Shown: positions 48,512 to 60,046 of the stretch, one piece after another
Layout of the letters: every line of letters begins with the position of its first letter
Position numbering within the stretch: position 1 is the first letter of the stretch
NCBI GenBank assembly: GCA_944322745.1
Contig: CALUPV010000001.1
Span: 62,001 to 126,000, forward strand
Direction of reading: 5' to 3'
From: Candidatus Gastranaerophilales bacterium
GTDB lineage: Bacteria > Cyanobacteriota > Vampirovibrionia > Gastranaerophilales > Gastranaerophilaceae
Length of the DNA: 64,000 nucleotides
Made by a program: the position numbers and the translations under genes
The notes under the pieces: generated by a model
What the model was told of the DNA's origin: nothing
Seen by the model: the letters and a program-made list of their open reading frames with translations, nothing else
The model's database searches: none

Positions 48512-50347
48512 ATGATACAAAATAATAATCTACAAAGCACAAATAACATATTTAGCTTGTTCCCGCCATACTCACTGGAACAAGCTAATGAAATACAAAA
48601 TCAAAATAATACTACTGCAAAACCCCAAGCTGCAACAACAGAGAAAAAAGATTCTGTTGAACTAACAAAGAAAAAATCAAGCAAAGCAAAGAAAATTATT
48701 TTTGGTTCAACACTTGCTTCAACAATAATAACAGCAGGTATTGTAAGTATGTTTTTTGCAAAAGGTGTACATGGTAGTTCTTTAAAAAAACTAGTTAGAT
48801 TTAAAGAGAAATTAGCTAAAGAAATATCAGAAAGCAGCAGAGCAGAGGGACTTACACAGAAAACCGTTCTATACACAAAAAAAGGCGCACAGAAAGCCAT
48901 TGATGGGCTTGAAGCCACATCAAACTTTGCGGCAATAAAAGACTGGACTTGTGACAGAATATTAAGATTAAACAAAGCAACAGCAAAATTTGCAGAAAAA
49001 TCAAGAAATTTATTCAAAAAAGTTGTAGATAAAACTTTAGGGAAAAAATATGATAAAGTTGAAGTCAAGGTAAGAGATTTAGCATCACTTTTAAAACACT
49101 ACAATATTACTAATCTTGAAAATTTAGACGAAGCTCAAAAAATAATGCCTGTAACAATTAAAGGGGAAACAAAAACTCTGGCAGAATGGCTTAAAAAACT
49201 TCACATAGAAATCAACCGTTTAGAAAGTGCTTATGATAATGGTTTCAGTTTGGGAGCAAGAAAATTAAGAGAACAAAAACGTTCTAAATTATTATCTGGA
49301 ATTTCTGATAAAATTAAAGAAAAGTTATTTGGTTCGAAGGGATTTCATTTTAATCCTAAAAATTATAAAACATACGTTACACAGGATGTATCCAGTACTG
49401 CGCAAAAAGAACTAAAAGAAGAAATTATAAGTGCAAGAAAAGAAGTTACGAACAGTATAACTTCAATATACGATGATATAAGAAGTAAAATTAATGAATT
49501 TTCAAATACAGTAAATGTCCAAGACTCGACTTCAATAGAGTTCATAAAAAAATTAAACCAACAACTTGAAGCATTTAAAAAATGTTCGGGAGCAAATGAA
49601 GCTTTATCAAGGAGAAAAATTGTTGAAGAAATATCATCAAACATAGATGATTTCATTAACCTCATAAATAAATCAAATTATTCTGAAGCTGATAAAAAGA
49701 ACTTATTTAGTATTTTAAAATCAATAAAATCTGTTGCAAAATCTTCAAGCGGTAAATCAAAGGGTGCTCTTGAAGAAATAATGACGATTATAAAAGGCTT
49801 AAACGGACAAACTATACAAGGAACAAATTCAAAACTAATATCAGATTCTGAATATAGAGATTTTTCAAGGTTGGCAGCAAAAATTAGTAAAGGACTTGAT
49901 AATGCTACAGAACTTGAAATGGGTGAATATTTCTTAAAACAAGCGGAATTGGAAGTAGGGTCTGCTGCAACGGATGTATTATCATTACTTTTCCCAATAG
50001 GTGCAGGTGCTATTGCCATCGCAAAAGGAGATGACAAAGAGGAAAAAGTTTCTGCAACATTAACAACTTGTATTCCTCTTGCCGGCAGCTTTGTAACATT
50101 TATATACGGCACAACAAAAATGTTTTCCGGTGCTAAAAATTTAATGTTTTCATTAATTTCAGGTATTGCATTAGGAAAACTTGGAAACTACTGCGATAAA
50201 TTATACAAAAAATATAAAGAATCAGGCTCTGTAACAAAAGTAGCAAAAGAAGAATATGACAATTTCTGGACAGATCTAACACCAAAATATGCACAGCCAT
50301 TAAAAAATGATGATACCAAAAATCAAAAAAATAAAAAATCAAAATAA
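48512..50347 (+). CDS. Large hypothetical protein with membrane segments
   Basis: 611 residues. A Gln/Asn/Thr-rich N-terminus (MIQNNNLQSTNNIFSLFPPY) is followed by one hydrophobic helix (IIFGSTLASTIITAGIVSMFF, about 66-86). A long helical, lysine-rich region comes next, then hydrophobic helices near the C-terminus (TDVLSLLFPIGAGAIAIAKG, LMFSLISGIALGKLGNY). Two bases after the previous gene. No family recognised. It looks like an inner-membrane or secreted structural protein. Confidence 0.65.
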   Translation: MIQNNNLQSTNNIFSLFPPYSLEQANEIQNQNNTTAKPQAATTEKKDSVELTKKKSSKAKKIIFGSTLASTIITAGIVSMFFAKGVHGSSLKKLVRFKEKLAKEISESSRAEGLTQKTVLYTKKGAQKAIDGLEATSNFAAIKDWTCDRILRLNKATAKFAEKSRNLFKKVVDKTLGKKYDKVEVKVRDLASLLKHYNITNLENLDEAQKIMPVTIKGETKTLAEWLKKLHIEINRLESAYDNGFSLGARKLREQKRSKLLSGISDKIKEKLFGSKGFHFNPKNYKTYVTQDVSSTAQKELKEEIISARKEVTNSITSIYDDIRSKINEFSNTVNVQDSTSIEFIKKLNQQLEAFKKCSGANEALSRRKIVEEISSNIDDFINLINKSNYSEADKKNLFSILKSIKSVAKSSSGKSKGALEEIMTIIKGLNGQTIQGTNSKLISDSEYRDFSRLAAKISKGLDNATELEMGEYFLKQAELEVGSAATDVLSLLFPIGAGAIAIAKGDDKEEKVSATLTTCIPLAGSFVTFIYGTTKMFSGAKNLMFSLISGIALGKLGNYCDKLYKKYKESGSVTKVAKEEYDNFWTDLTPKYAQPLKNDDTKNQKNKKSK

Positions 50348-51253: not shown

Positions 51254-52351
51254 ATGTTACGAGCAGGGATTGTAGGACTACCAAATGTAGGAAAATCAAC
51301 ATTATTTAATGCATTAACTTCTTCAAATAATGCCCAGAGTGCGAACTTTCCGTTTTGTACTATAGAACCAAATGTCGGCGTTGTTAATGTTCCTGATGAA
51401 AGACTTCAGATTTTAGGCAAACTTGTTAAAACTCAAACAATAATTCCTACTGCTATTGAGTTTGTAGATATTGCAGGACTTGTAAAAGGTGCAAGTAAAG
51501 GGGAAGGACTTGGCAACCAATTTTTACATAATATAAGAGAAGTTGATGCAATTATTCAGGTTGTAAGATGTTTTGATGATATAAATACTATCCATGTTTC
51601 AGGAAAAGTTAATCCTATTGATGATATAGAAACTATTAATACAGAATTAGCTTTAGCAGATATGGCATCAATAGAAAAAAGACTTGAAAGATTAACTAAA
51701 ATAGTTAAAACCGGTGATAAACAAGCGGCACTTGAATATAAAGTTCTATCAAAAATCAATGAATTATTAGCAGATGCAACATTTATAAATCTCGAAAAAT
51801 ATTTTGAAGATGAAGAACTTGAATTTGCAAAAAATTCACAATTAATGTGCATAAAACCGGTTATATATGCTGCCAATGTTAGTGAAACAGATTTAGCTAC
51901 AGGCAATAATTATGTTGAACAGGTAAGAGAATATGCATCTAAACATGGAGCTGATGTTGTTGTAATTTCTGCAAAGATAGAAGCAGAACTTGTAGATTTA
52001 TCGCAAGAAGAAGCAAAAGCATATCTATCAGATTTAGGCGTAACAAGTTCAGGTATTGAGAGAATGGTTCAATCTGTATATAAGCTGCTTGATTTAACAA
52101 CATTTATAACAGCTGGCGAAAAAGAAGTAAGAGCTTGGACTGTAAAGAAAGGCTCTAAGGCGCCAAAGGCAGCTGGAGTAATTCATACAGATTTTGAAAA
52201 AGGTTTTATAAGAGCAGAAGTAACAAGTTATAAAGACTTTGTAGATGCAGGTTCTTATGTTGTTGCCAGAGAAAGAGGCGTTACAAGACTGGAAGGAAAA
52301 GATTACATTATTCAAGATGGAGATATAGTCCATTTTAGATTTAATGTGTAG
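51254..52351 (+). CDS. ychF: Ribosome-associated ATPase YchF
   Basis: 365 residues of the Obg-related YchF group. The P loop is GLPNVGKSTLFNALT; switch and DIAG motifs are PFCTIEPNVGVV and VDIAGLVKGASKGEGLGNQFL. The non-canonical NXXE-type G4 and the C-terminal TGS domain (ITAGEKEVRAWTVKKGSKAP, DYIIQDGDIVHFRF) are present. YchF binds ribosomes and hydrolyses ATP. AAAGGAAAAATTT precedes the ATG at 51254. The last 11 bases overlap the leftward btuF gene. Confidence 0.96.
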   Translation: MLRAGIVGLPNVGKSTLFNALTSSNNAQSANFPFCTIEPNVGVVNVPDERLQILGKLVKTQTIIPTAIEFVDIAGLVKGASKGEGLGNQFLHNIREVDAIIQVVRCFDDINTIHVSGKVNPIDDIETINTELALADMASIEKRLERLTKIVKTGDKQAALEYKVLSKINELLADATFINLEKYFEDEELEFAKNSQLMCIKPVIYAANVSETDLATGNNYVEQVREYASKHGADVVVISAKIEAELVDLSQEEAKAYLSDLGVTSSGIERMVQSVYKLLDLTTFITAGEKEVRAWTVKKGSKAPKAAGVIHTDFEKGFIRAEVTSYKDFVDAGSYVVARERGVTRLEGKDYIIQDGDIVHFRFNV

Positions 52352-53138
52352 GTTCTTCACTAAAATTTAAAGTTGAGAATAGTTTAACCGCTTCTGCGAT
52401 CCTAGGTCCGGGGCGGTTTATTATATCTCTTTGTTTTGAACTTAAATATAATATTCTTGACTTAGGAAATAATTCCTTTAATTTTTCAACATCTGAAGGG
52501 AAACAAATAATAATAACATCCGGATTTTTTTCAAGCACATATTCTAAAGTTATATTTGGATAATAATATGGAATATCTGATGTAATAGATATATGACCCG
52601 ATTTTTCTATAATATCTGTTATATAGCTTTCACTGCCGATTGTTACCAGAGGGTTTGTTTGAACTACGTATAAAATTTTTTTAGGACTATTTGTCCTATT
52701 TTCTTCAATGTTTTGTTTAATATCTCTTATAAGTCTTTGTGCATTTTTTTCACTGTTTGTAATTTTCGCAATATTATTTATTGTTTCGTATATTTCTTCG
52801 ATCTTTGTAAACTCAAAATAGACTGGCTTAGTATTTGTTAAAGAAAGTTCACCAAGTTTAGGTTTTGCTGACGTCATCGCAAATATGTAATCAGGTTTCA
52901 AACTAACAATCATTTCCATATTCACGAAATAAGTATCACCAATAATTGGTTTTTCTTTGACCTTTTCCGGATAATTACAAGTTGAAGAAACAGCAAGAAG
53001 ATTATTCTCCGCACCAAGTGAATATATTATTTCCGTTATAACAGGAGATAAACTAATATAAGTTGAAGCAAATGTTATGTTACCAATAAAAAATAATATA
53101 AAACTAATTACATATCTGTATATGAATATCTTCTTCAT
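52341..53138 (-). CDS. btuF: Periplasmic vitamin B12-type substrate-binding protein
   Basis: 265 residues. A signal peptide (YVISFILFFIGNITFA) without a lipobox precedes a TroA/BtuF-fold domain: ISLSPVITEIIYSLGAENNL, VSLKPDYIFAMT, RILYLSSKQRDIINRPGPRIAEAVK. It delivers cobalamin to the BtuCD transporter. It is last in a riboswitch-controlled operon and its start overlaps the btuD end by 35 bases. Assignment to B12 rests on the riboswitch, since iron-siderophore proteins look alike. Confidence 0.82.
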   Translation of the reverse strand: MKKIFIYRYVISFILFFIGNITFASTYISLSPVITEIIYSLGAENNLLAVSSTCNYPEKVKEKPIIGDTYFVNMEMIVSLKPDYIFAMTSAKPKLGELSLTNTKPVYFEFTKIEEIYETINNIAKITNSEKNAQRLIRDIKQNIEENRTNSPKKILYVVQTNPLVTIGSESYITDIIEKSGHISITSDIPYYYPNITLEYVLEKNPDVIIICFPSDVEKLKELFPKSRILYLSSKQRDIINRPGPRIAEAVKLFSTLNFSEEPTH

Positions 53139-53826
53139 TATTTATAACCTTAAAATTAATACCGAATATCTTCTTTAATATATCAGGTGAAATAAAGTCT
53201 TTCTTACTGCCGGATATTATTTTCCCCTCTTTCGATAAACCTAAAAAATAATCTCCATAATTAGAAGACAAATTAATATCGTGAAGAACAATAATACAAG
53301 TAATTCCTGTTTGTGTAAGTTTTTTTATCATATTTAGGATTTTTATTTGGTTAATTAAATCCATATTTGATGTAGGCTCATCAAGTAATAGAATATGTGC
53401 TTCTGAAATTAAGCCTAAAGCTATATTTGCTTTTTGTAATTCTCCTGAACTTAAATTATCAATCAGTGTACATTTCTTATCTGTAAGTTCAAGTATATTA
53501 AGCATTTCATTAACTTTATCTTTTTCTTCTTTTGTTAAAAACCACTTCCAATTTTGTTTATAAAAAGAGGATTCAATATACTCTTGCAAAGTAATCCCTT
53601 GAGGATATTTTATCCGTTGCGGAAGATAAAATAAATCTTTATTATTTACAAGTATTTCACCCATCTGAGGTTTAATAATACCTGCAATTATTTTTAGCAA
53701 AGTAGTTTTTCCGACTCCATTAGGCCCTACCATTATAGTAAGCTGATTTCTAGGAATTTGTATATAGACATTTTCAAAAAGTTTAAGATTATCAACTGTA
53801 TAAGAAAGGTTTTTGATATTAATCAC
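53104..53826 (-). CDS. btuD: ABC transporter ATPase for cobalamin uptake
   Basis: 240 residues. Walker A is GPNGVGKTTLLK, the signature LSSGELQKANIALGL, Walker B ILLLDEPTSNMD, and the switch His is in VLHDINLSS. It belongs to the FepC/BtuD branch that energises import through FecCD-type permeases. It overlaps btuC by eight bases and btuF by 35. Confidence 0.9.
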   Translation of the reverse strand: MINIKNLSYTVDNLKLFENVYIQIPRNQLTIMVGPNGVGKTTLLKIIAGIIKPQMGEILVNNKDLFYLPQRIKYPQGITLQEYIESSFYKQNWKWFLTKEEKDKVNEMLNILELTDKKCTLIDNLSSGELQKANIALGLISEAHILLLDEPTSNMDLINQIKILNMIKKLTQTGITCIIVLHDINLSSNYGDYFLGLSKEGKIISGSKKDFISPDILKKIFGINFKVINNEEDIHIQICN

Positions 53827-54802
53827 TAAAAATATCTCCTTTCTTTATTAAGAAAAATACAAAAACAGGTGCACCGATAAAAGCTATAACGAGCCCTAAC
53901 GGAACCTGCAATGGATATATTATAGTTCTCGCAATATAGTCAGAAATAAGAATAAAACTACTACCTAACAATATATTAGAAAAATATAACCACCGGTAAT
54001 CTTGACCAAATAGCATTCTTGAAATCTGAGGTGCAATAATACCTACAAATCCAAGTATTCCCGCAGAAAATACACTTAAAGAAGTTAATAATGAAGCTAA
54101 TATTATTATTACTAAAGTATATAAATATCTTCTATTTTTATCAGTTGACAATAGATCAGAATCTAACCTTAAATAATTCAACTTTGGTATAAATAGAACA
54201 GTTATTAACATTAAAATGACAAATATTATTATCAACGCTTTATTTGATATCACCTCATTATTAGTAACTCCACCGGATAGAATTAGCATCATCATGTATG
54301 ATTTCAAAGGATTTATCAATATTATCAATGATATTAAAGAACTAACAAAAATATTTATAGATAAACCTATTAATATTAATTTTGTAATAGAAAACTTACT
54401 TAATCCGGAAAATATTATAACAATAGAAGAAGAAATCAACGCACCAATAAAACCGAAAAGAGAATAATTAGAACTGTTGAAAAATAATATAGAAAGAACA
54501 ATGCCAAGACCGGCACCTGAAGATATTCCTGTTATATAGGGTTCTGCTAAAGGATTTTTTGATACAGACTGCATAAACATACCGGCAAGTGCCAAACAAC
54601 AGCCTGCAATTAAAGCTTTTAATGCTCTGGGATATCTTAACACAGTTAATATTACACTATCAGTATCTTCTGAAATATTAAAAGCTTTATATAACATATT
54701 TATTCCAAAATCTTTGTATCCTGCATACATAGCAAGATACAAAGATAAAATGAGTATAATAAATAAAATTATTATTATAGATATCTTTTTAAATTTATTC
54801 AT
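53819..54802 (-). CDS. btuC: FecCD-family permease for cobalamin uptake
   Basis: 327 residues with about ten membrane helices. The FecCD signature lies in LRYPRALKALIAGCCLALAG and NPLAEPYITGISSGAGLG, and GFVGIIAPQISRMLFGQDYR is the segment that contacts the ATPase. BtuC dimers form the inner-membrane channel. It starts 13 bases after btuB ends. Confidence 0.9.
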   Translation of the reverse strand: MNKFKKISIIIILFIILILSLYLAMYAGYKDFGINMLYKAFNISEDTDSVILTVLRYPRALKALIAGCCLALAGMFMQSVSKNPLAEPYITGISSGAGLGIVLSILFFNSSNYSLFGFIGALISSSIVIIFSGLSKFSITKLILIGLSINIFVSSLISLIILINPLKSYMMMLILSGGVTNNEVISNKALIIIFVILMLITVLFIPKLNYLRLDSDLLSTDKNRRYLYTLVIIILASLLTSLSVFSAGILGFVGIIAPQISRMLFGQDYRWLYFSNILLGSSFILISDYIARTIIYPLQVPLGLVIAFIGAPVFVFFLIKKGDIFSD

Positions 54803-54814
54803 AAGTTAACTATA

Positions 54815-56908
54815 TCACAGAGTTTCTACTTTTTCTTTCTGCGGGAAAGTATATTTCATAAATAAACCTGCTCTAAAATGAATTCCCGGAGCATAATACG
54901 AAGTCGGACCTGTTTTATACATAGAAATATCTTGATCAAGAAGGTTATATACAGTGCCATTTAGGGATATTTCAGTATTTTCAGTTTTAAGTAATCTAAC
55001 TTTACCTCCTATTTTTACGTCAACATATCCGTTTGTTTTATCTGAATTTTGAGTTGCAGACATATAGCGACCTGAATTAGCTTCAACTCCTGCATATAAA
55101 TTAACTATTTCATTAGGAATCCAATAAATTGTTCCCTTAATTGAGTTTCTTGGACAACCGGGTAAATCCGTATGAGTTGTTTTATCCTCTGAATCAGTAT
55201 AAGTATAACTTGCGATTGCTTTTAACCAAGGTCTGGGTTCCCAAGTTATTTTTCCTTCGTAGCCCTGTATTCTTGCCCTGTCAACATTAACGTATTGTCC
55301 GACATAAACCCACGTTATAGGGTCTGTTTCACCTCTATAAGCAATATAATCATTATAATCACTGTTAAAATAACCAAAATCAATTGTTAATTTTTCATCA
55401 AAGAAGGACTGAGTAACACCTACATCCCAGCTTTCCATTTTTTCCGCTTTTAAATTAGGATTCGCCAGTGATTGCATATAAGATGAATTAAGTGTTCCAA
55501 AACGTTGATACAATGTAGGATTATTAACACTCTGCCCCCAAGAACTTCTGAATTTAGTTTTTGAGCCTTCTAAATTAAACGTAGGTAGAACTAATGCTGC
55601 AGACACATTTGGCGTAACATATGTACCGAAATCAGAATTATTAATAATTCTTGCACCGCCTCTTATAAATAACTTATCTTTAATGTTTATTAAATCATTA
55701 ACAAATACATCATTTTGTATCGTATTACCGGAGTATCCATTAAGAACGGTTCCTGTCCACATAGCTACATCTCTTGTATGACCATCTATAAATTCTGTTT
55801 CAAAATTGTAACCGACAGATAAAGTATTCCAATCTGCAACTTTATAATTATGTTGAGTTACAAAATTAAGTCTGGTACTATCTATCTTTGAAATTGATTC
55901 ATAAAACGGATCACCGCTTAAATTGTCCGGCAGAACATAACTGTTACTTTCATTATGATATACTCCAAACTTTGCATCATAGGTATATTTTTCATTCGGA
56001 CTATGTGAATAAGAAAGAACATTCATTATATCGTAATTAAGACCATAATTATTCGGCGATTGATATATTCCGTATGGATATGATTGTTGATAACCAACCC
56101 CCAAGCCTTTTCTTGCTCTTGAAAATCTAAATATGTTGCGTACTTCAGCTTTTTCATCAAGAATTCTTTTACCTATATTTGTAACTATATTCAAATTATT
56201 ATAATCATCATTACGGATATCTCCCAAACCGGTAGCACTCATACCACCATCAGTTTTAAACCAAGTCAAGCCCATATAATAATCTATAGAATGATTGCCA
56301 CCCATAAGCGCTAATCGTTCTTTAAAAGTCCCAAGATTTCCCATCTCACTGCCCATTTCAATTGATAACGGACCTCGACCTCGTCTCGTCTGCATTGCAA
56401 TTAAACCGCCTGAAGCATTTGTACCTGCCAAATTACCTTGAGGACCTCTTATTATTTCTATCCTTTCTAAATCGTCAGTTAATATAAATTGAGGTTCTAC
56501 GCCGGGACTTGTCATAGATGTTCTGTCTGCTCTTATACCATCAATCGTCATCCGGACTCTATCTGTACCACGCAACCTTACGGAAGACACTGATCCATCT
56601 GAACCATTTGCATTTTGAACAAAAAGGCTACCTGTTTGGTTTAATAATTCTGATAATAAAGGAGAATTTTGCCTCGTAATTTCTTTACGTGTAATAATAT
56701 CAACACTGGCACCGGCTGACTCTATTGATTCTGCATAATTACTATATGAGTATATTTCCTTTTCCTTAACATCCCCATATAGAATCAATTTATCTGAGGA
56801 TTTTTCATCAGGAGTATCCAAATCCAACTCTACTACTTCTTCCACTGCTTGCATTGGCATAACAGAAAATAATGCCGTGGCAAGCATCGCATAAAACATC
56901 TTTTTCAT
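54815..56908 (-). CDS. btuB: TonB-dependent outer membrane receptor, probably for B12
   Basis: 697 residues. A signal peptide (MKKMFYAMLATALFSVMPMQA) is followed by a plug domain (SVDIITRKEITRQNSPLLSE, VSSVRLRGTDRVRMTIDGIR, LERIEIIRGPQGNLAGTNAS) and a C-terminal beta-barrel with many aromatic strand ends. The last strand, HFRAGLFMKYTF, is followed by a short extra tail PQKEKVETL. A cobalamin riboswitch precedes it and BtuCDF follow, so B12 or another corrinoid is the likely ligand. TonB and ExbBD genes are not in the window. Confidence 0.88.
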   Translation of the reverse strand: MKKMFYAMLATALFSVMPMQAVEEVVELDLDTPDEKSSDKLILYGDVKEKEIYSYSNYAESIESAGASVDIITRKEITRQNSPLLSELLNQTGSLFVQNANGSDGSVSSVRLRGTDRVRMTIDGIRADRTSMTSPGVEPQFILTDDLERIEIIRGPQGNLAGTNASGGLIAMQTRRGRGPLSIEMGSEMGNLGTFKERLALMGGNHSIDYYMGLTWFKTDGGMSATGLGDIRNDDYNNLNIVTNIGKRILDEKAEVRNIFRFSRARKGLGVGYQQSYPYGIYQSPNNYGLNYDIMNVLSYSHSPNEKYTYDAKFGVYHNESNSYVLPDNLSGDPFYESISKIDSTRLNFVTQHNYKVADWNTLSVGYNFETEFIDGHTRDVAMWTGTVLNGYSGNTIQNDVFVNDLINIKDKLFIRGGARIINNSDFGTYVTPNVSAALVLPTFNLEGSKTKFRSSWGQSVNNPTLYQRFGTLNSSYMQSLANPNLKAEKMESWDVGVTQSFFDEKLTIDFGYFNSDYNDYIAYRGETDPITWVYVGQYVNVDRARIQGYEGKITWEPRPWLKAIASYTYTDSEDKTTHTDLPGCPRNSIKGTIYWIPNEIVNLYAGVEANSGRYMSATQNSDKTNGYVDVKIGGKVRLLKTENTEISLNGTVYNLLDQDISMYKTGPTSYYAPGIHFRAGLFMKYTFPQKEKVETL

Positions 56909-56940
56909 AAAATTTTAACCTCGTGCTCGCAAGTAATTCC

Positions 56941-57033
56941 AGACAAAATAGGTATTCTGACTTCAAAAGGATAAACCTTTCCTTACAGCTACGGCATAGT
57001 CACTCGTACGAGTAGTTTCCCTATAACGTCTCT
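56941..57033 (-). ncRNA. Cobalamin riboswitch upstream of btuB
   Basis: On the minus strand: TATAGGGAAAC, then GCCGTAGCTGTAAGG and GAAGTCAGAATACC, the standard B12-box elements in the right order. GAC and GTC at the ends can close the outer stem. It is compact (about 95 nucleotides), so peripheral helices are reduced. It ends about 33 bases before the btuB ATG and probably controls translation, as no clear terminator follows. Confidence 0.85.
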
Positions 57034-57036
57034 TCT

Positions 57037-57064
57037 AGATTAACATTTTTTTTATTTTTGTCAA
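57037..57064 (-). promoter_or_regulatory. Promoter of the btu operon
   Basis: On the minus strand TTGACA (57059-57064), a 16-base spacer and TAATCT (57037-57042) with TG just upstream of the -10. Transcription would start near 57030, exactly at the riboswitch 5' stem. Confidence 0.7.
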
Positions 57065-57136
57065 TATAATAAAAAAAAAACAAACAAAAAAATTGACTAT
57101 AATATTAAAAAAAATTAAGCTTACTATTACTCAAAA

Positions 57137-57165
57137 TTTACTACAGATATATTGCATGATAAACT
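57137..57165 (+). promoter_or_regulatory. Candidate promoter of the structured leader
   Basis: TTTACT (57137-57142), 17-base spacer, TAAACT (57160-57165) with TG one base upstream (extended -10). Start predicted near 57172. Moderate match only. Confidence 0.35.
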
Positions 57166-57171
57166 TAACAA

Positions 57172-57318
57172 AGTTAGTAATGAGGAAATCGAGTGGAATT
57201 CTTGAACCGGACCGCGGCCGTATAGTCGGAATGCTCTAATTCTTATATGGGTTGCGTGTATCCTGCCTATATACTGAAGAAGAGCTCCTTACGTTAAGCG
57301 TATAAGGAGTTTTTTATT
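57172..57318 (+). ncRNA. Structured leader RNA with SD-containing terminator
   Basis: A GC-rich patch (ACCGGACCGCGGCCG, about 57206-57220) stands out from the AT-rich surroundings. CCGGAC and GTCGG can pair around it. A second long hairpin joins 57233-57251 to 57266-57285: ATATGGG/CCTATAT, TTCTT/AAGAA and GCTC/GAGC. A terminator follows, CTCCTTA (57285-57291) with TAAGGAG (57303-57309), then six T. The 3' arm holds the AAGGAG ribosome binding site for the TTG start at 57319. This layout suits a riboswitch, an attenuator or a separate small RNA. I could not match it to a known class. Confidence 0.6.
57285..57315 (+). terminator. Terminator that contains the next gene's ribosome binding site
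   Basis: Seven-base perfect stem CTCCTTA/TAAGGAG, loop CGTTAAGCGTA, then TTTTTT. AAGGAG is nine bases before the TTG start, so folding would both end transcription and hide the start signal. Confidence 0.65.
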
Positions 57319-58038
57319 TTGCCGACACCAATATCATTACAATCTAATAATAGAGCAGGATTATGTCCACATGGGCTTCCACCTTCTGCTTGCCCTATTT
57401 GTAGTGGTGGTGGCATGGCTGGTGGTGGAAGAGTAAAAGAAGCTGTAGTTTCAAAACCAATGAATTCAGGCGAATGGTCATTTATGAAATGTTATGCAGC
57501 AGGACTTGCAATGCGAGCTCAAGAAGCAAGAGTTGAAAATGCAAAAACTGCATTTGAACGTCAAATTGAGTTTGCTCAACAACTTGGAAAAAACATACAA
57601 AATATTGCGGATAAAATCCAAAATGCCATTCAGAATTTACAAAACAGTTCGCCTGTTATTATCCAAAATATCTTACAAGTAATCAATAATTCAATAATTA
57701 ATCCTATATTAAACCTAATATCTCAAATACCTAAATTAATTGAAAATATAGCTGAACTTCAAAAAAAGCTTGGAGAAATGCTTCAACAAGCCGGGGAAAA
57801 GCTCACAGCTTTACTTGGTGATATTAAAAACTTCATAGACAGAAAAGTTATCGATAACATAAAAAAACAAATTAAGAAATTTTTCTTATGGTTTACAACA
57901 GATTTAGAAGATGAAAATTACAAAAATGACGATGCTTTAGAAGTATTCAAAGCAAGAGAAATGAAAAAGTATTTAGTTAATATTGTAACTAAGATTAAGA
58001 AACGGAATGACAATGATAATAGAGCCAATAAAGAATAA
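57319..58038 (+). CDS. Lineage-specific protein with a CPHG-CPIC cysteine motif
   Basis: 239 residues. A short N-terminal motif CPHGLPPSACPICSGGG (residues 15-31, three Cys and a His, a possible zinc site) is followed by Gly residues, then a long amphipathic helical region (about 60-180) with many Gln, Asn and Ile. The C-terminus is charged. Start codon is TTG, fixed by AAGGAG at nine bases. First of three genes after the structured leader. No family recognised; function unknown. Confidence 0.7.
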   Translation: MPTPISLQSNNRAGLCPHGLPPSACPICSGGGMAGGGRVKEAVVSKPMNSGEWSFMKCYAAGLAMRAQEARVENAKTAFERQIEFAQQLGKNIQNIADKIQNAIQNLQNSSPVIIQNILQVINNSIINPILNLISQIPKLIENIAELQKKLGEMLQQAGEKLTALLGDIKNFIDRKVIDNIKKQIKKFFLWFTTDLEDENYKNDDALEVFKAREMKKYLVNIVTKIKKRNDNDNRANKE

Positions 58039-59554: not shown

Positions 59555-60046
59555 ATGAAAATAGCAAACATAAATATTCAGAATAATGTTTCACAACTTG
59601 GTCAAGGAGTAACTTTTCCAAATCATCAAAGAAATTACTGTACTTTCAACGAAAAAAGAACAGAAGAACTTGTTAACGCAAAAGAAGAGGCTCTACCATA
59701 TATTGATACATTTTTAAAATCTGCCTGGAGTGAAGAACAAGTATTAGATGGGCTTCAAGTACTTGATAAAATGCTTGATAAAGGCGTAAAAGGCATAGAT
59801 AAAATGTATCCGACAATTGCAAGATTTAACGATGTAACCTCTCCAAATGTACAAGTAATGTTAGCAGGAATTTACAGAAAAACACTTGTTCCGGATGCTT
59901 TTGGACCTTTAAATAAAATGATGACAAGACAAACCCTAATGCCAAATTCACCTTATTTTGATCCTACAGAAGAAATAGGAGGTGCAATTATGGAATATTT
60001 AAAGAATCAATCTAATATTAATTCTTCAACAATCATAAAACATTAA
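59555..60046 (+). CDS. Hypothetical soluble protein, lineage-specific
   Basis: 163 residues, no signal or membrane segment. It begins MKIANINIQNNVSQLGQGVT, and the remainder is helical (ERTEELVNAKEEALPYIDTF, LDGLQVLDKMLDKGVKGIDK). AAGGAAAAATT precedes the ATG, ten bases after the previous stop. The stop overlaps that of the convergent TPR gene. No family recognised. Confidence 0.65.
   Translation: MKIANINIQNNVSQLGQGVTFPNHQRNYCTFNEKRTEELVNAKEEALPYIDTFLKSAWSEEQVLDGLQVLDKMLDKGVKGIDKMYPTIARFNDVTSPNVQVMLAGIYRKTLVPDAFGPLNKMMTRQTLMPNSPYFDPTEEIGGAIMEYLKNQSNINSSTIIKH

Follow-up and report, generated by a model that had tools for sequence, protein, structure and literature searches.

The question raised by this locus is what kind of RNA precedes the gene at 57319 and to which signal it responds. 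The window, namely the whole stretch of 64,000 nucleotides that was analysed, comes from a Candidatus Gastranaerophilales bacterium. A sequence-only reading had described its leader at 57172-57318 as the GC-rich, structured leader of lineage-specific genes, with a terminator also carrying the ribosome-binding site. From comparison with related genomes, the leader is judged, at a probability of roughly 87%, to be a cobalamin riboswitch of the AdoCbl-II class, which would repress the operon P1-P2-P3 under ample corrinoid supply. The features on the plus strand are as follows.

57172-57241, plus strand: AdoCbl-II (cobalamin) riboswitch aptamer, matched to RF01689 by cmscan, with the same family upstream of orthologues
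57172-57177/57236-57241, plus strand: closing helix of the aptamer
57189-57193/57201-57205, plus strand: aptamer P4
57207-57209/57215-57217, plus strand: aptamer P5 with L5
57218-57220/57227-57229, plus strand: aptamer P6
57228-57230, plus strand: aptamer core GGA
57244-57273, plus strand: P13 hairpin (stem 57244-57251/57266-57273), supported by stem replacement, L5-L13 compensatory changes and a swap test
57253-57256, plus strand: L13 TGCG, complementary to L5 CGC at 57213-57215, putative kissing loop
57233-57285, plus strand: predicted antiterminator (57233-57237/57281-57285 plus 57240-57242/57276-57278), which encloses P13 and uses the aptamer 3' strand
57285-57317, plus strand: predicted intrinsic terminator, stem of seven pairs 57285-57291/57303-57309 (CTCCTTA/TAAGGAG), T-run from 57310
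57319-58038, plus strand: gene P1, 239 aa, TTG start, CPHG..CP.C cysteine motif followed by long helices
58007-59545, plus strand: gene P2, 512 aa, overlapping P1, about four hydrophobic helices by reading
59555-60046, plus strand: gene P3, 163 aa, third gene of the conserved operon

The G+C content of the leader is 41%, as compared with 30% in the whole window and 15% in the preceding 130 bases, and it exceeds that of 98% of 147-base windows. The 147-nt RNA folded more stably than all of 200 dinucleotide shuffles (z -2.9), and the value for a 181-nt stretch was weaker (z -1.1). Of the pairings suggested earlier, the one placed at 57207-57226 matches the aptamer helices P5 and P6, and that of 57233-57285 is the antiterminator helix around P13. 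The seven-pair stem and the T-run were present as described, and AAGGAG (57304-57309) in the 3' arm of the stem, nine bases 5' of the TTG, is the ribosome-binding site for the gene at 57319. A search by consensus found no sigma-70-like promoter, a point against the riboswitch reading.

A permissive Rfam scan of 56900-57400 matched RF01689 at 57172-57241 with 36.3 bits (E 5.1e-7), and the alignment spanned the full model (positions 1-81). The gathering score of RF01689 is 36.5 bits. The window copy is therefore 0.2 bits under the curated cut-off and was missed by the gathering-level scan of the window, which returned one tRNA only and no riboswitch. The conserved core of RF01689 comprises GGAAA, GUGAAAUUC and AGUCGGA, and the window has GAGGAAA, GUGGAAUUC (one change) and AGUCGGA. 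The order of P4-P6 also agrees with the family, and most orthologous leaders are over the cut-off, those before the P1 gene scoring 37-54 bits in many genomes. Apart from the missing 0.2 bits, the locus differs from the family in that its target operon is restricted to one order. RF00174, the cobalamin riboswitch family of the same clan, gave 15.7 bits with the plus-strand leader, below its cut-off of 31.5; on the other hand, L147, a homologue of the btuB leader on the minus strand, passes RF00174. By these matches the leader RNA is assigned to a known class, AdoCbl-II, a short representative of cobalamin clan CL00101. The sequence-only reading had compared it by eye with known classes, cobalamin included, and had seen no match. 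That comparison was mistaken, and the Rfam check that it proposed yields a strong match to a known class once orthologues are used.

Extra RF01689 copies in relatives (L043, L052, L053, L054, L149-L153) stand before nrdD or nrdD-like genes. NrdD, the anaerobic class III ribonucleotide reductase, is B12-independent and is a typical target of B12 switches, and cobalamin riboswitches typically control uptake, biosynthesis and B12-independent isozymes. Therefore, the class seems to show the usual behaviour of B12 switches in Gastranaerophilales too, as would be expected of a B12-repressing switch. Several of the extra copies before nrdD sit at a very short distance from the start codon and resemble translational switches.

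The anatomy of the switch was examined by comparison among relatives. The P13 stem is wholly replaced in a relative that is 98% identical in P1, with the pairing and the loop kept (TATATGGG/CCTATATA as compared with TCAAAT/ATTTGA). L5 and L13 show compensatory changes, with CGC:GCG in the window, CAC:GTG in four of the four leaders having CAC, and GGC:GCC in L077, and a swap test of this pair gave z -3.2. The L5-L13 kissing contact, a feature of the cobalamin clan, is thus predicted to be present here. Terminator and antiterminator were assessed by permutation tests that ignore the tree and in which residual relatedness remains after removal of near-identical leaders: the terminator arms of 47 non-redundant leaders having a T-run at the start codon paired at -10.0 kcal/mol with their own partner and at -6.9 kcal/mol when swapped between species (z -10.3; 0 of 5000 permutations), and the antiterminator of 43 leaders, whose partners are the aptamer 3' strand and the strand at the terminator foot, at -11.9 and -7.7 kcal/mol, respectively (z -11.3; 0 of 5000), a signal that comes partly from the enclosed P13, the aptamer-only segment alone giving z -4.4. 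The terminator stem itself varies by clade (CCTTAC/GTAAGG, CCTCT/AGAGG, CCTTGTG/CACAAGG), with the purine-rich Shine-Dalgarno (SD) sequence kept in the 3' arm. These results support the earlier idea of a riboswitch-type leader whose terminator carries the ribosome-binding site, both pairings being sequence-specific across relatives and conserved upstream of homologues of the 57319 gene.

The two helices overlap by at least two bases in 39 of the 43 leaders. In 38 of the 43 the aptamer core GGA is paired with the strand that makes up the terminator 5' side and so joins the antiterminator helix, which indicates that one TCC-type strand is contested by the aptamer core and the SD. In the window, the predicted antiterminator mainly blocks the lower terminator (C57285 and A/G-U pairs), and in a constrained fold the upper stem can still form, a point against the model; as the predicted helix ends at C57285, the foot is blocked here and not the whole stem. 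The two states have constrained energies of -35.9 and -42.0, computed without ligand or kissing loop, and these values do not discriminate between the states. The loop of the terminator carries CTGCGG or TTGCGG, complementary to the aptamer L5 (CCGCAG), in several clades (L095-L104, L107, L133, L015, L121, L134 and L140). In these clades a kissing contact of L5 with the terminator loop would be conceivable in addition to that with L13.

The arrangement suggests the following mechanism. When B12 is bound, the aptamer 3' strand would be locked in the closing helix and by the kissing loop, the antiterminator would be unable to form, and the terminator would end transcription and hide the ribosome-binding site. 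When B12 is lacking, the aptamer 3' strand would pair with the terminator foot, transcription would go on and AAGGAG would be freed. With the terminator arm doubling as SD, one hairpin would end transcription and also block initiation on transcripts that slip through. The switch is most likely a B12-repressed OFF switch. The riboswitches of Priestia megaterium metE and A. halodurans cobT have been dissected (PMC10653944). The repressing metE switch resembles the present leader in its L5-L13 kissing loop, its P13 and the competition of an antiterminator with an intrinsic terminator (PMC10653944). However, its antiterminator uses the 3' side of P13, whereas here the aptamer 3' strand is predicted to be used and P13 is enclosed, and the terminator arm here is also the ribosome-binding site.

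Control of translation only, with a hairpin that hides the ribosome-binding site and an incidental T-run, is the rival that survives best, and we regard it as unlikely. The SD does lie within the terminator 3' arm, and the minus-strand riboswitch seems to be translational. However, 47 of the 62 non-redundant leaders have a T-run of four or more that stands directly between the stem and the start codon, and a leader from a second family of the order has a terminator-like hairpin and T-run separate from the SD. Activation of the operon in the presence of B12 is less likely still. Among corrinoid riboswitches one is known to activate, and its P13 has sequence in common with the terminator and is itself the antiterminator (PMC10653944). 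This architecture does not fit here, since P13 (57244-57273) has no overlap with the terminator arm (57285-57291), and the competitor that is conserved is the 3' strand of the aptamer itself. The new regulatory RNA class that had been thought possible was rejected on the basis of the RF01689 match and the orthologous leaders, and a non-cobalamin ligand bound by an RNA merely resembling AdoCbl-II is scarcely credible: the window copy is just below the gathering score and the controlled genes have no known function, but orthologous leaders reach 54 bits, other copies in the same genomes appear to control nrdD and the core letters agree with the RF01689 consensus.

The riboswitch was also considered together with its operon across relatives. 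Of 191 genomes from the bacterial family, 176 carried RF01689 (146 of them over the cut-off), in many cases as one copy per genome, and in all 19 loci selected for protein similarity it lay directly 5' of the P1 gene. When named genomes were scanned, 316 relatives of P1 came up, and the 80 that were kept are Candidatus Gastranaerophilales or other MAG records. A pattern for the leader core occurred 93-407 bases upstream of the P1 protein match in 74 of these 80 loci, and three further loci (L121, L134, L139) are over the RF01689 cut-off. L068 has a degraded copy by eye, and the upstream region of L078 is cut by the contig end. The leader core is absent upstream of position 6001 in L069 (RGIG4430), also one of the 80. 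This locus keeps the operon and has apparently lost the aptamer, and is a natural test of the purpose of the switch. In a set of 117 genomes, each of the 100 that have P1 also has RF01689, as do 8 of the 17 that lack P1 (Fisher p 3e-9). Neither P1 nor the riboswitch was found in the nearly complete family genomes of genus g27 (G026, G061, G088, G110) and in G077. In one genome of the second family, the operon leader is a diverged AdoCbl-II-like copy (20.9 bits, E 0.41) with the core CAGCCGTAAAGCCGGAA. Judged by these matches, the switch is kept by nearly every species that has the P1-P2-P3 operon.

On the other side of the leader lie the following features.

52341-56908, minus strand: putative B12 uptake cluster btuB, btuC, btuD, btuF (Pfam FecCD, ABC_tran, Peripla_BP_2, TonB receptor)
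54815-56908, minus strand: btuB-like TonB receptor gene
56906-57026, minus strand: second, divergent cobalamin riboswitch (putative), leader of the btuB-like gene, with the SD inside a P13-like hairpin

The best NCBIfam matches of the cluster, TIGR01779 (TonB-B12) and BtuF for the gene at 52341, are all below curated cut-offs. A link to this cluster as the cause was rejected, as the cluster flanks the leader in the closest relatives (L063-L066) alone; in L067 and beyond, the riboswitch and the P1-P2-P3 operon stay together where the btu cluster does not adjoin. The cobalamin-like core before btuB was recognised by eye. It did not reach the RF00174 gathering score of 31.5, with no match in the window or in its own genome, and its homologue L147 gives 33.9 bits; the btuB leader is therefore described as a divergent relative and not filed as RF00174. 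Close relatives retain this leader, and its extended P6 shows compensatory changes among them (A-U to G-C and G-C to A-U in L065). A covariance model, R1, built from four sequences matched before btuB homologues of 95, 71, 59 and 56% identity, the last of which passes RF00174; these come from a congeneric genome and from three outside the genus (G174, G039, G012 and G023; L144-L147) and have a changed L4 and an extended P6. R1 also reaches the accepted AdoCbl-II switches L148 and L151. Taken with the plus-strand leader, two cobalamin-type riboswitches would thus stand back to back between btuB and P1.

The proteins of the operon fall into no recognised family or fold. P1 and P2 occur together in 78 of the 80 loci, with P3 next in 64. 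P2 was detected in 136 of 240 genomes of the class, 135 from the family and one from the second family of the same order, and in none outside the order; the genes are thus lineage-specific, as had been supposed. The CPHG..CP.C motif of P1 is invariant together with one further cysteine, which suggests a metal site. No Pfam family matched P1 and no known family matched P3, nothing convincing for P1-P3 came from Pfam, NCBIfam, PHROGs or a PDB sequence search, and P2 had no known family or fold match (Foldseek, run for P2 only). The matches of P1-P3 to coiled-coil, tape-measure and translocon proteins were weak and those to alpha-pore folds of low probability, and both were attributed to helical composition. 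The AlphaFold models of P1 and P2 are of low confidence (pLDDT 63 and 68). A 611-aa helical protein at 48512-50347 on the plus strand, with no convincing family match, has an N-terminal region and a hydrophobic segment that are P2-like in style by reading. A census of B12-binding domains did not separate genomes with P1 from those without it. TIGR02504 (NrdJ) and TIGR00276, which we take to be QueG, were not found in the bacterium's own genome.

By distribution and predicted regulation, P1-P2-P3 is a conserved, B12-linked operon restricted to the order Gastranaerophilales. Because the switch would repress it when corrinoid is plentiful, the operon is probably a B12-starvation response. Corrinoid acquisition or an envelope function under B12 lack is our guess at its role, from its regulation and membrane character. 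The wider proposal, in which P1-P2-P3 is an undescribed B12-repressed membrane system of Gastranaerophilales (for example for corrinoid acquisition) with its riboswitch kept across the order, and in which btuB there is also under a divergent cobalamin riboswitch missed by the Rfam models, is given slightly less than an even chance as a whole. No paper on the P1-P2-P3 operon or on B12 riboswitches in Gastranaerophilales was found in the open-access literature. As far as found, the regulon is undescribed, and the RNA class is already known.

The curated Rfam thresholds hide cobalamin riboswitches in Gastranaerophilales, narrowly in the case of the P1 leader (36.3 vs 36.5 bits) and altogether in the case of the btuB leader. 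Therefore, B12 regulation in these bacteria is probably under-annotated. For the order-wide operon, which otherwise lacks distinguishing features, the apparent tie to vitamin B12 status in these uncultured gut relatives of cyanobacteria would be a first functional handle.
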